A stretch of 64,000 nucleotides of DNA, from positions 124,001 through 188,000 of the forward strand of contig CALUOP010000001.1 of assembly GCA_944322305.1 (NCBI GenBank), written 5' to 3'. Below the pieces are notes generated by a model. The model saw nothing but the letters and a program-made list of their open reading frames with translations, searched no databases and was not told where the DNA came from. Of the stretch, positions 38,584 through 64,000 are shown one piece after another. The number at the start of each line of letters is the position of its first letter. Position 1 is the stretch's first letter. This DNA comes from an uncultured Coriobacteriaceae bacterium. Lineage in GTDB: Bacteria > Actinomycetota > Coriobacteriia > Coriobacteriales > Coriobacteriaceae. The translations under genes and the position numbers were made by a program.

Positions 38584-38702
38584 TGGCGCGCGCCGTGTCG
38601 ACCTGCAAGACGCAGCGGCGCTCGGCGTGGCGCACGCCGAGCCGCCAGGCAACATTCGTCGGTCATGCGCCCGCGCTCTCCACAGTCCTATCCCGCGCGC
38701 CG

Positions 38703-38770
38703 GGCCGGGGGACGATGCGAACCCGGAATCCGCCCGATATCGGATTCCGGAACCGCATCGTCCCCCGGCC
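38703..38770. terminator. Long perfect-stem hairpin after csoR
   Basis: Stem CCGGGGGACGATGCG, a symmetric AAC/AAC internal loop, then CCGGAATCCG with an 8-nt loop, and the exact complements. The outer arms extend by GGCC on both sides and are followed by TTTCCTT. It lies 120 bp after csoR in a convergent gap. It is a likely terminator, though unusually long. Confidence 0.6.
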
Positions 38771-38884: not shown

Positions 38885-39104
38885 GGCTGGTCGCACGGCC
38901 GACATCTAAGCTTTGGTTGGACGCGATAGCCGCAGGTAAGGATCCGGTTGGTCGCGAAAACAACGGACAGGCCTTCGGTTGATCGCGATAACCGCAGGTA
39001 AATTGCACTTGGTCGCCCAAGCGACGGCTAACTCCCGGATTTCCGGCAGTTAGCTGTCGTTTGCGAGACCAACCGCTCCAGCAACGACGAAATCGCGACC
39101 AACT
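38885..39104. repeat. Mirrored 12-bp box array, copy 1
   Basis: Boxes resembling GGTTGGTCGCGA start at 38885, 38915, 38946, 38977 and 39007 (steps 30, 31, 31, 30). Inverted boxes end at 39074 and 39104 (step 30). The centre of symmetry, 39040.5, coincides with the centre of a hairpin (39022-39059; CGACGGCTAACT / AGTTAGCTGTCG with CCGG/CCGG at the tip). The positions mirrored from the outer boxes (39135, 39166, 39196) match only weakly. I see no gene in 38584-39425. Confidence 0.7.
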
Positions 39105-59864: not shown

Positions 59865-61040
59865 TCACGGTGCGACGTCAGGGTCCAGGCTCTGGGCGCT
59901 CACGCGCATCTCGGCCGCCAGCGCGCTGAACGCCTCGAAGCGCACCGCGTCGATCTCGCCCGCCGCAAGCTGCGCCAGCACCTCGCATCCCGGCTCGCGG
60001 GCGTGCGTGCAATCGTTGAAGCGGCACCCGCGCGCGGCCCGCACGATCTCCGGAAAGGCCCGCGCGAGCCCGCGCTCGTGCCCCACCAGCGGCAGGCTCC
60101 GCAACCCCGGGGCGTCGGCCACCACGCCCGCCCCGGGCAGTTTCACCATCATCCGGGCCACGGTGGTATGGCGCCCCGCGTCGTCGCGCTCGCGCACCGC
60201 GCCGGTGGCCAGCGCCTCATGGCCGAGCAGGCCGTTCAGCAGCGTGGACTTCCCGGCGCCCGACGCGCCTAAGATCATGCCGACCGTGCCGGCGGGTATG
60301 CAGGAGCGCACCTCCTCGAGCCCCGAGCCGAGCGCCGAAGAGGTGGCCACCACCCGCACGCCCGGCCCCACGAGGCGCTGCACGCGCTCAACGTCGGATG
60401 CAAGCGCGGCGGCATCCCCCTTGCGGTCGGCCTTGGTGAGCACCACCACCGGCTTGGCTCCGCAGTCGAGCGTCAGCACGAGCGAGCGGGCGATGCGCGC
60501 CAGCGGCACCGGGTCGGGCCCCAGCGCTTGGACGGTCAGCACCTCGTCCACGTTGGCGGCAAGCGTCTGGCGCTCGCCGCGGCTCTTGCCGCGCCAGCGC
60601 TCGAAGGCGCCCTTGCGCGGCAGAACCCGCTCGATCACGCCCATGTCGTGACCTGCCGGGCAAAGGAGCACCACCCAGTCGCCTACGGCGGGCAGAAGCG
60701 CGTCGCCCTTCTCGCGATCCTGCTTGGCGAAGCCGACCGCGTGCTCAGCGCGCACCGTGCGGTCGCTTGCCACCACTAAGGGAAAGCCGCGGTCGAGCCT
60801 GATCACGCAGCCCAGGCGCGCCTCGTCGGGGTTCTCCGCAGCGGCGCGCGCCCCCTCGAACGCCGCACGCTGCTCGGGCGTGGGCGCAAGGTCCCCGAAC
60901 GCGGGCACGTCGTCATACGCGTCCGCCGGCGGGAGATCGGCGAGAACCGCCGCCACGTCGACGGAAGCCGCTTTGCGCTCCCGCCGCCTGCGCTCTGACC
61001 TTCTCGCCTGTGCCTTGCCCGCCTGCCGCTTCTTGCCCAT
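59865..61040 (-). CDS. rsgA: Ribosome small-subunit-dependent GTPase RsgA
   Basis: A 391-aa circularly permuted GTPase assisting 30S maturation. OB fold (VVASDRTVRAEHAVGFAKQ region), G4 VLTKADRKGD, G1 LGASGAGKSTLLNGLLG, G3 VVADAPGLRSL, and a zinc-binding CRFNDCTHAREPGC. The N-terminus is extended and very basic (MGKKRQAGKAQARRSERRRR), which may help rRNA binding. It is a single gene with a terminator, downstream of the mirrored repeat array. Confidence 0.94.
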   Translation of the reverse strand: MGKKRQAGKAQARRSERRRRERKAASVDVAAVLADLPPADAYDDVPAFGDLAPTPEQRAAFEGARAAAENPDEARLGCVIRLDRGFPLVVASDRTVRAEHAVGFAKQDREKGDALLPAVGDWVVLLCPAGHDMGVIERVLPRKGAFERWRGKSRGERQTLAANVDEVLTVQALGPDPVPLARIARSLVLTLDCGAKPVVVLTKADRKGDAAALASDVERVQRLVGPGVRVVATSSALGSGLEEVRSCIPAGTVGMILGASGAGKSTLLNGLLGHEALATGAVRERDDAGRHTTVARMMVKLPGAGVVADAPGLRSLPLVGHERGLARAFPEIVRAARGCRFNDCTHAREPGCEVLAQLAAGEIDAVRFEAFSALAAEMRVSAQSLDPDVAP

Positions 61041-61085: not shown

Positions 61086-61335
61086 CGTTGCCCGCGATTA
61101 CGTCACCTACCGCCCGGTTGCCCGCGACTTTGACCGCGAGGGGCTCGGTTGCACGCTGACGCGGCGCCTAAGAAGCGGTTAGCCGCTCCAAGCGCACGCA
61201 ACGCCCGTCATATCGAGAATCACCCGTCGTCAAAGCTCCCAACTGCTCCGACGGTGTCGAGCTCGCGACCAACCGGAAGCCTGTACGTCGCCGGAGCGGC
61301 CAAGCGAGCGCCCAACGCCACATCCGCAACCAGCC
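61086..61335. repeat. Mirrored 12-bp box array, copy 2
   Basis: Direct boxes start at 61086 (CGTTGCCCGCGA), 61116 (GGTTGCCCGCGA), 61147 (GGTTGCACGCTG) and 61177 (GGTTAGCCGCTC). Inverted boxes end at 61244, 61274, 61305 and 61335 (read on minus: AGTTGGGAGCTT, GGTTGGTCGCGA, GCTTGGCCGCTC, GGCTGGTTGCGG). Steps are 30, 31, 30 on both sides, mirrored about 61210.5. The box core is the same as in copy 1 at 38.9 kb. No gene is evident in 61041-61480. Confidence 0.7.
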
Positions 61336-61393: not shown

Positions 61394-61424
61394 AAAAAGC
61401 CCCGGGGCACGCAACCCCGGGGCT
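61394..61424 (-). terminator. Intrinsic terminator of the P-type ATPase gene
   Basis: AGCCCCGGGG / CCCCGGGGCT stem, followed on the minus strand by TTTTTC. It lies about 57 bp after the stop. Confidence 0.9.
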
Positions 61425-61480
61425 CGGCTTGCAGTGTGCGGCGCAAAGGAGCGCCGGCGCGCGACGCGTCTGCCGCAGCC

Positions 61481-64000
61481 TTACGCCTTGTCCTTCTCGA
61501 CGGCGCGCATGATGGCCTTGTAGACCTCCATGAGCGGGATGATGAGGAACGCCAGGCCCAGTGCGCAGGCAAGCGCCACGGGCGGCAGCTCCATGAAGCC
61601 GAACATCTCGGCCAGGGCCGGAACCTCGACCACGATGACGGTCAGCACGAGCGCGAGCGCGGCGGCGCCCCAGAGCCACTTGTTGTGGCTCTTCATGGTG
61701 AAGAGCGACTGACGGCGGCTGCGCATGTTGAAGCAATGGAAGATCTCCACCATGGACAGCGTGATGAACGCCATGGTGACGCCCTCCTCGTCGGCGGTGC
61801 CGGCGATCATGTCGGCGATGTCGATGTAGCCCATGTCGAAGTACACGCCCACGAAGAAGCTCGCCAGCACGAGCGCGGTGATGATGACGCCCTGGACGAC
61901 AATGTCGACCCCCATGCCGCCGGCGAACACGCCGTCGGAGGCCTTGCGGGGCTTGCGCTTCATGATGTTGCCCTCGGCGCCCTCCATGCCGAGCGCGAGC
62001 GCCGGGAAGCAGTCGGTCACGAGGTTGATCCACAGCAGCTGCACCGGCTGGAAGATGGTGAAGCCCACGAGCGTGGCCACGAACACCGAGAGCACCTCGG
62101 CGATGTTGGCCGACAGCAGGAACTGGATGACCTTGCGGATGTTGTCGTAGATGCGCCGGCCTTCCTCCACCGCGTTGATGATGGTGGCGAAGTTGTCGTC
62201 GGCGAGCACCATGTCGGCCACGTTCTTGGTGACGTCGGTGCCGGTGATGCCCATGCCGACGCCGATGTCGGCGCGCTTGATGGAGGGCGCGTCGTTGACG
62301 CCGTCGCCCGTCATGGCCACGATGTTGCCGCGGCTCTTCCAGGCGTCGACGATGCGGGCCTTGTGCTCGGGCTGGACGCGCGCGTAGACGCTGTACTCGG
62401 TGACCTTGTCCTTGAAGTCCTCGTCGGAGATCTTGTCGAGCTCGGCGCCGGTGATGGCGTGGCCCGCGCCGTCGCCCTCGAGGATGCCGAGGTTCTTGGC
62501 GATGGCCACGGCGGTATCGATGTGGTCGCCCGTGATCATGACCGGGCGGATGCCGGCCTCGCGGGCCTCGGCGATGGCGGGCGCCACCTCGGGGCGCTCG
62601 GGGTCGATCATGCCGGACAGGCCGCAGAACACCAGGTCGTGTTCGAGGGCCTCAGGCGCGCAGTCGGCGGGCACCGCGTCCCAGGTGCGGCTCGCAAGCG
62701 CCAGCACGCGCAGGGCCTCGTCGGCCATGGCCTTGTTCTCAGCCAGGAGCGCGGCCTTGCGCTCAGCCGTGAGCGGGACGATCGCGTCGCCGTCGTAGAT
62801 CTGCGTGCACAGGTCGAGCACCACGTCGGGCGCGCCCTTGGTGTACTGCTCGAAGGTGCCGTCGGCTTCTTCCACGACAACCGACATCATCTTGCGGCCC
62901 GAGTCGAACGGAGCCTCGCCCACGCGCGGGTGCTCCACGTCGAGCCCGGTCATGCCGGCCTTCGCGGCGTCGTTCACGAGCGCGCACTCGGTGGGCTCGC
63001 CCTCGGCCTCGCCATCCTCCTCGCTCCACTTGGCGTCGGAGCACAGCGCCATGCCGGCGAGGAACTTCTCCTCGGGGGCGGCGAGCACGTGCTTCACCAC
63101 GGTCATCTTGTTCTGGGTGAGGGTGCCGGTCTTGTCCGAGCAGATCACGGTCGTGCAGCCGAGGGTCTCGACCGCCGTCATCTTGCGGATGATGGCCTGG
63201 CGCTTGGCCATCTTGGTGACGCCCATGGAGAGCACGATCGTGACCACGGCCACGAGGCCCTCGGGGATGGCGGCGACGGCGAGCGACACGGCGACCATGA
63301 AGGTGTCGAGGATCATCTCGGGGTTGGAGCCCAGCTCGCCGCCGTGGCGGATAAGGTCCACGGCGAAGATGACCACGCAGATGCCGAGCACGAGCTTGGT
63401 GAGGATGCCCGAGAGCTCGTTGAGCTTGATCTGGAGCGGGGTGAGCTCCTTTTTGGCGGTAGTCAGGGCGTTTGCGATCTTGCCCATCTCGGTCTTCATG
63501 CCGGTCGCGACCACCACGGCCCGACCGCGGCCGTAGACCACGGTGGAGCCCATGTAGCACATGTTCTTGCGGTCGCCGAGCGGCACGTCGTCAGCGTCGG
63601 AGGCAAGGACGATGGCCTGCGTGTGCTTCTCCACCGGCACGGACTCGCCGGTGAGCGCGGCCTCCTCGATCTTCATGCTGGCGCTCTCGATGACGCGGCA
63701 GTCGGCCGGGACCGAGTCGCCGGCCTCGAGCACCACGACGTCGCCGGGCACGAGCTCGGACGAGGGCAGGTGCACGAGCTTGCCGTCGCGGATCACCTTG
63801 GACTGCGCGGCGCTCATCTGCTGCAGGGCCTCGAGCGCCTGCTCGCTCTTGGCCTCCTGCACCACGCCGAGCACCGAGTTGATGACGACGACGGCCAGGA
63901 TGATGATGACGTCGGCCCATTCAGGCTCGCCCTGGATGGTGCCCGTGATGGCCGAGATGGCCGCCGCCACGATGAGCATGATGACCATGGGGTCGGCCAT
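61481..64000 (-). CDS. P-type cation ATPase, P2 (calcium-like), partial at window end
   Basis: At least 839 residues are inside the window; the true N-terminus lies beyond 64000 (the ATG at the edge is internal). Motifs: ALTGESVPVEK (A domain), TVICSDKTGTLTQNKMTV (phosphorylation site), FDSGRKMMSVVV and KGAPD (N domain), MTGDGVNDAPSIKRADIGVGMG (hinge), and FQPVQLLWINLVTDCFPALALGME in the C-terminal helices. The membrane region contains VAAIPEGLVAVVTIVLS, whose PEGL is typical of Ca2+/Mn2+-type P2A pumps. Substrate is likely Ca2+ but not proven. Single gene with terminator. Confidence 0.93.
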   Translation of the reverse strand: MADPMVIMLIVAAAISAITGTIQGEPEWADVIIILAVVVINSVLGVVQEAKSEQALEALQQMSAAQSKVIRDGKLVHLPSSELVPGDVVVLEAGDSVPADCRVIESASMKIEEAALTGESVPVEKHTQAIVLASDADDVPLGDRKNMCYMGSTVVYGRGRAVVVATGMKTEMGKIANALTTAKKELTPLQIKLNELSGILTKLVLGICVVIFAVDLIRHGGELGSNPEMILDTFMVAVSLAVAAIPEGLVAVVTIVLSMGVTKMAKRQAIIRKMTAVETLGCTTVICSDKTGTLTQNKMTVVKHVLAAPEEKFLAGMALCSDAKWSEEDGEAEGEPTECALVNDAAKAGMTGLDVEHPRVGEAPFDSGRKMMSVVVEEADGTFEQYTKGAPDVVLDLCTQIYDGDAIVPLTAERKAALLAENKAMADEALRVLALASRTWDAVPADCAPEALEHDLVFCGLSGMIDPERPEVAPAIAEAREAGIRPVMITGDHIDTAVAIAKNLGILEGDGAGHAITGAELDKISDEDFKDKVTEYSVYARVQPEHKARIVDAWKSRGNIVAMTGDGVNDAPSIKRADIGVGMGITGTDVTKNVADMVLADDNFATIINAVEEGRRIYDNIRKVIQFLLSANIAEVLSVFVATLVGFTIFQPVQLLWINLVTDCFPALALGMEGAEGNIMKRKPRKASDGVFAGGMGVDIVVQGVIITALVLASFFVGVYFDMGYIDIADMIAGTADEEGVTMAFITLSMVEIFHCFNMRSRRQSLFTMKSHNKWLWGAAALALVLTVIVVEVPALAEMFGFMELPPVALACALGLAFLIIPLMEVYKAIMRAVEKDKA

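Follow-up and report, generated by a model that had tools for sequence, protein, structure and literature searches.

Mirrored, helically phased box arrays form a dispersed intergenic family in a Coriobacteriaceae bacterium

Upstream of rsgA, in a window of 64,000 nucleotides (the whole stretch of DNA that was analysed), eight short boxes stand in two mirrored sets of four, which raises the question of what such an arrangement is. A preliminary description had placed the boxes at 30/31/30-bp steps about an axis at 61210.5. All eight are confirmed in the sequence, and both the steps and the axis prove to be the canonical anatomy of a whole family (50 copies). The parts of the array and its neighbours are:

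61086, direct box CGTTGCCCGCGA
61116, direct box GGTTGCCCGCGA
61147, direct box GGTTGCACGCTG
61177, direct box GGTTAGCCGCTC
end 61244, inverted box AGTTGGGAGC (reverse complement, read from the end)
end 61274, inverted box GGTTGGTCGC (reverse complement, read from the end)
end 61305, inverted box GCTTGGCCGC (reverse complement, read from the end)
end 61335, inverted box GGCTGGTTGC (reverse complement, read from the end)
61177..61244, plus strand, 68-bp core: left core box GGTTAGCCGC (61177), then CGCACGCAACGCCCG...CGAGAATCACCCGTCG, then right core box AGTTGGGAGC (end 61244)
61086..61176, plus strand, left arm: boxes 61086, 61116 and 61147 pointing toward the core, at -91, -61 and -30 from the left core box
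61245..61335, minus strand, right arm: inverted boxes with ends 61274, 61305 and 61335 pointing toward the core, at +30, +61 and +91 from the right core box
59865..61040, minus strand, rsgA (small ribosomal subunit GTPase), downstream neighbour, judged to lie outside the element
61481..64000, minus strand, P-type cation (calcium-type) ATPase gene, upstream neighbour, judged to lie outside the element

The array lies downstream of the ATPase gene, which ends at 61481, and of its terminator-like GC-rich hairpin with a short T run (about 61394-61425, recognised by eye; a stricter scan raised no flag). No consensus promoter was found at the rsgA/ATPase locus.

Single boxes say little. Within the 64-kb window, GCGACCAAC with one mismatch was observed 22 times against 26 expected by shuffling, so that single boxes are no proof and the rest of the genome is the test. 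On that scale, the mirrored array next to rsgA proves to belong to a family of intergenic DNA elements scattered through the chromosome. The host is a member of the Coriobacteriaceae, near Enorma/Collinsella, with a 2.35-Mb genome in a draft assembly of 15 contigs, and a sequence-only model finds about 70 copies spread over most of these contigs. Specifically, GCGACCAACCG occurs 99 times in the host genome compared with 5 times in the reversed control, and a DNA search with the rsgA-side array matched 12 further places in the host (best E=1e-25). A core model built from 22 seed pairs, with the rsgA-side copy left out, recovered 50 cores including the one left out. After refinement of the model this copy scores 67.6 bits and the reversed sequence never exceeds -19.6. 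Of the roughly 70 host copies, a few are degenerate or differ by one base in the spacing of their core, and a single array spans roughly 130-970 bp. Among the array clusters examined there is no gene-bearing (autonomous) copy. We found no published description of the array family in the open-licence literature, and it is apparently undescribed so far.

Apart from the genome-wide family, the first reading had overlooked its conserved centre AACTCCCGGAWWTCCGGGAGTT, present as a degenerate copy in the middle of the rsgA-side core, and a second array within the window. This array extends over 38885-39104:

38885..39006, plus strand, left arm of the second array: boxes 38885, 38915, 38946 and 38977
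39007..39074, plus strand, core of the second array, flanked by the genes for a CsoR-type repressor and a family 1 glycosyl hydrolase
39075..39104, minus strand, right arm of the second array: one inverted box, end 39104

The canonical layout is a directional 68-bp pseudo-palindromic core with converging boxes at +30, +61 and +91 bp. With one flanking base on each side, the core consensus reads CGGTTGGTCGCTCAAACcGCAcgcAACTCCCGGAtTTCCGGGAgTTAGgTGcCGTc.GaGCGACCAACCG over its length. Measured from the core boxes in 50 copies (100 arms), converging boxes at 0, 30, 61 and 91 bp are found in 98, 90, 61 and 26 arms respectively, and slightly shifted ones in 6 more at 60 bp and 11 at 92 bp; at the canonical offsets of these 50 copies no box has the wrong orientation. 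Every 30/31-bp unit also contains a second motif, CANNTAA, 18 bp after the start of the box. When all copies are oriented, the two halves differ systematically, e.g., by GGTTGAACGC in the -30 box of the left half, and the element thus has a direction. Terminal inverted repeats and sharp ends were not found: similarity fades outward and arm length is variable.

Conservation ranges from 28% to 100% over 138 aligned columns, with a standard deviation of 0.19 compared with 0.06 expected under uniform (neutral) decay. Because this is far more uneven than neutral decay would leave it, the boxes are constrained and the copies are not simply decaying repeats. Judging from this pattern, something in trans probably reads the copies, or did so at the time of their spread.

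The spacing of the boxes follows the helix. Beyond 95 bp from the core, box positions keep a 10.4-bp phase (n=154, R=0.75). The phase holds when close relatives are removed (n=117, p ~5e-27), and boxes of opposite orientation at these distances have it too (n=58, R=0.71). In the reversed-sequence control the signal is weak, with n=26 and p=0.01 including relatives and n=20 and p=0.22 without them. Recurring spacings between boxes are about 30.5, 42, 52, 62, 73 and 104 bp. The earlier suggestion that three turns per step point to a repeating protein array is strongly supported by this, since spacing is quantised at 10.4 bp family-wide. Some of the arms carry tandem duplications, of 93 bp (95% identical) in L101, of 42 bp in L106 and of 30-31 bp in L108, L132 and L155; over all arms the shortest class of duplication measures 30-32 bp. 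Arms therefore grow by duplication, and the phased steps are partly non-independent. The duplicated units differ between arrays and each is close to a whole number of helical turns, the trace that would be expected if selection favoured proteins bound along a single helical face. The spacing of about 70 copies alone records the 10.4-bp pitch of DNA, and is evolutionary evidence that something reads one helix face over hundreds of base pairs.

To place the family in the genome we used gene calls made for the analysis, by which all 50 of the copies checked are intergenic. The gaps that hold arrays are tandem in 29 cases, convergent in 10 and divergent in 7, proportions no different from those of the remaining gaps (p=0.20), and there is no clear relation of element direction to transcription. 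Outside the host, core searches gave no match in the family (66 other genomes) and no signal above background in the class. Among 397 other genomes of the class, a more sensitive model detected relatives in the congener G001 alone, with three copies (one of the searches with stricter filters). Two of the three G001 copies lie inside stretches almost identical to the host genome, which indicates recent exchange of these two. The syntenic G001 gaps that were read or compared contain no arrays. Their median length is 246 bp compared with 668 bp in the host, and the host excess tends to be larger where the array is longer (Spearman 0.80, p 0.0006), with little or no length difference in 2 of 14 gaps (L113, L094). 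As the G001 gaps are array-free and shorter by roughly the length of an array, the DNA was gained in the host lineage. Target-site duplications were looked for, but the gap sequences are too diverged; none was seen at L090, the clearest empty site. The copies are about 70% alike, and even the closest, aside from neighbouring pairs at one locus, are about 85% alike over 330 bp; such low likeness implies that the spread is old and the amplification not recent. A viral, phage or plasmid origin was also considered and rejected, as phages, plasmids and viral contigs gave no match to the array.

We lean, with somewhat better than even confidence, toward a lineage-specific, non-autonomous dispersed element that assembles a cooperative array of a putative protein. 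The likeliest role of each 30/31-bp unit, made up of GGTTGGTCGC and then CANNTAA, is to bind a single unit of a sequence-specific DNA-binding protein, and units of whole turns would bring the proteins onto one face of the DNA where they could contact each other. Binding would nucleate at the 68-bp core and extend outward along both arms. The lineage gained the element as additional DNA at some 70 intergenic sites, in what would be a non-autonomous (MITE-like) manner and presumably by transposition rather than by recombination or gene conversion; the arms have since lengthened and shortened as units of whole turns were duplicated in tandem.

In placement and net gain of DNA the family behaves like MITE-type dispersed elements such as BrickBuilt and ERIC. 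As in a MITE, the copies are short, non-coding, numerous, dispersed and mainly intergenic, with filled and empty sites relative to G001; terminal inverted repeats at sharp ends are missing from the picture. ERIC has a conserved centre; it is a single element and is not known to contain repeated box units or to be helically phased. It is an intergenic imperfect palindrome present in tens to hundreds of copies, with a lineage-dependent number (PMC10969869). Array and ERIC are alike as lineage-dependent intergenic imperfect palindromes, and we claim no sequence relationship. The BrickBuilt MITE of Porphyromonas gingivalis is non-coding, dispersed and reported to be strictly intergenic, with an internal array of 23-nt repeats in variable number; it has leader and tail segments whose terminal inverted repeats match an insertion sequence of its host, and its internal repeats run in direct tandem (PMC4596501). 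The arrays share with it dispersal, lack of coding, intergenic position and a variable number of short internal repeats, but their repeats converge on a conserved centre, have no ends that we could find and are spaced by whole turns. In the sources consulted, helical phasing over hundreds of base pairs is not reported for any of the families compared. We file the arrays as dispersed intergenic repeats whose mode of action would be that of an array binding protein cooperatively. Stem-loops and truncated insertion sequences are the usual forms of dispersed repeat in bacteria.

The most interesting rival, and the main alternative, is that the copies are chromosome-organising sites of a lineage-specific nucleoid or partition protein (Noc- or SlmA-like), kept for the benefit of the cell rather than selfish. 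We consider this unlikely, though by a smaller measure than any of the explanations that follow. About 70 sites on most contigs, intergenic, indifferent to gene direction, constrained and helically phased, are what it would lead one to expect, and Noc of B. subtilis also has about 70 palindromic sites scattered over the chromosome, which load a protein that spreads along the DNA (PMC4331003). These Noc-binding sites are single short palindromes, whereas the arrays are multi-box, hundreds of base pairs long and confined to one lineage. The core also differs from the known Noc site, and the arrays are absent from the syntenic gaps of the congener and from all other genomes of the class that were searched, although such systems are usually conserved. 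Canonical ParB is present in all four genus members, and the host and G001 share a second, weakly matching ParB-like protein (in the host at L211 829-2331, G000:C4 near 197 kb) that was not detected in G002 or G003. However, G001 has this extra gene with only three arrays. The second ParB-like protein has the same distribution as the RAYT transposase discussed below, and we take it as a lead, not as evidence. Tentatively, and with the same low expectation, about 70 phased multi-box arrays might be loading platforms for a cooperative DNA-binding protein, forming a private chromosome-organising or DNA-marking system unlike single-site ParB, Noc or MatP. Finding the protein would separate a selfish element with a cooperative protein from a recently evolved chromosome-organising system.

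That the arrays are operators of a global transcription regulator is more doubtful still. Cooperative phased operators are common in bacteria, and at rsgA the closest box is only 46 bp upstream of the start codon. However, 10 of the 46 array gaps lie between convergent genes and offer no promoter to act on, orientation is random relative to genes, and one array spans roughly 130-970 bp. The neighbours are functionally unrelated: besides rsgA, the cation ATPase, the CsoR repressor and the glycosyl hydrolase 1, they include genes for thioredoxin, ribosomal protein S12, transketolase, GTP cyclohydrolase, rubrerythrin and PTS proteins. A regulon for rsgA and the ATPase, or for any functional class, was rejected after 30 proteins were scanned, mostly of array neighbours, and found to be unrelated. 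A link to rsgA or the ATPase is not supported: copies of the element have some 70 unrelated loci as neighbours, with genes in every orientation. Stoperators of Cluster A mycobacteriophages are many dispersed sites for one protein, mostly between genes. By general description they are single short asymmetric sites in a phage genome, whereas the arrays are phased, mirrored and chromosomal. As a separate observation, L123 (G000:C8 near 48 kb) holds a tandem pair of arrays that share 86% of their sequence and are separated by 371 bp, upstream of the mraZ end of a division and cell-wall gene cluster (names read from translations).

A structured RNA, terminator or REP-type hairpin element is very improbable, despite the mirror geometry and the presence of other palindromic repeats and a RAYT gene in the host genome. 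Within copies, the arms match each other with identity 0.548, lower than the 0.578 of shuffled partners, so that they do not covary; RNA folding on either strand was no better than shuffles (z-scores -0.4 and -0.6), and Rfam gave no match in the array. Of the "giant interrupted palindrome" proposed for the locus, the geometry stands, but arms that do not covary, halves that differ and folding equal to shuffles speak against it. Arms that do not covary and halves that are unlike favour DNA recognition over base pairing, and the array is probably a DNA-level, putatively protein-bound design, not a hairpin RNA. The family resembles REP, BIME and REPIN elements with their RAYT in being made of dispersed intergenic repeats in mirrored arrangement. 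REPs are stem-loops with pairing arms, in contrast to the arrays, and the RAYT gene of the host is flanked by another repeat (GGGTTGGTTGGGGACGTG...); the stem-loop with compensating arms that defines a REP/RAYT element was not observed, and this assignment was rejected.

Single boxes are no commoner in one window than expected, yet a chance pattern in GC-rich intergenic DNA can be dismissed on the strength of the genome-wide counts, the fixed spacing and the scores of the model. A CRISPR array, with near-identical repeats, unique spacers and cas genes, was likewise rejected: the boxes are about 10 bp and degenerate, the spacers are partly conserved and the scanned neighbours are ordinary.

For the favoured dispersed element, we also looked for a mobiliser. 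The only Y1 (RAYT) transposase of the host is shared with G001 and missing from G002 and G003, a distribution over species that fits that of the arrays, but its own, different repeat flanks the gene and it was rejected. The rve transposases were rejected as well, being ordinary IS3- and IS21-like with no arrays beside them. Among the Y1 and rve transposases searched there was hence no autonomous partner, and no arrays lie beside either. The RAYT-type Y1 gene itself, at L198 (G000:C4 near 265 kb), is flanked by its own REP-like repeats GGGTTGGTTGGGGACGTGTTCCATCTGACCC.

The genome also holds a separate dispersed family, seen in the window at 38700-38770, whose members are long, nearly perfect hairpins sharing the conserved interior GAACCCGGATTTTGCCCGATATCAAAATCCGGAACC. 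The stems of these hairpins appear to compensate. The family is found in the host and the congener, with further members at L156 (about 2845-2905), L093, L111, L113, L152 and the G001 locus L189.

Finally, the G001 loci L141 and L142 are 94-99% identical to the host loci L130 and L156 over several kilobases. Other syntenic genes of the two species are mostly about 75-90% identical, and the 94-99% stretches represent recent exchange between species. One exchange breakpoint in this comparison adjoins an array and a hairpin. At about 2780-2950 of L130, beside the array, the host carries an insertion of roughly 170 bp with a GGGACAGGGGACTTTG motif, which is absent from the otherwise nearly identical G001 stretch L141.
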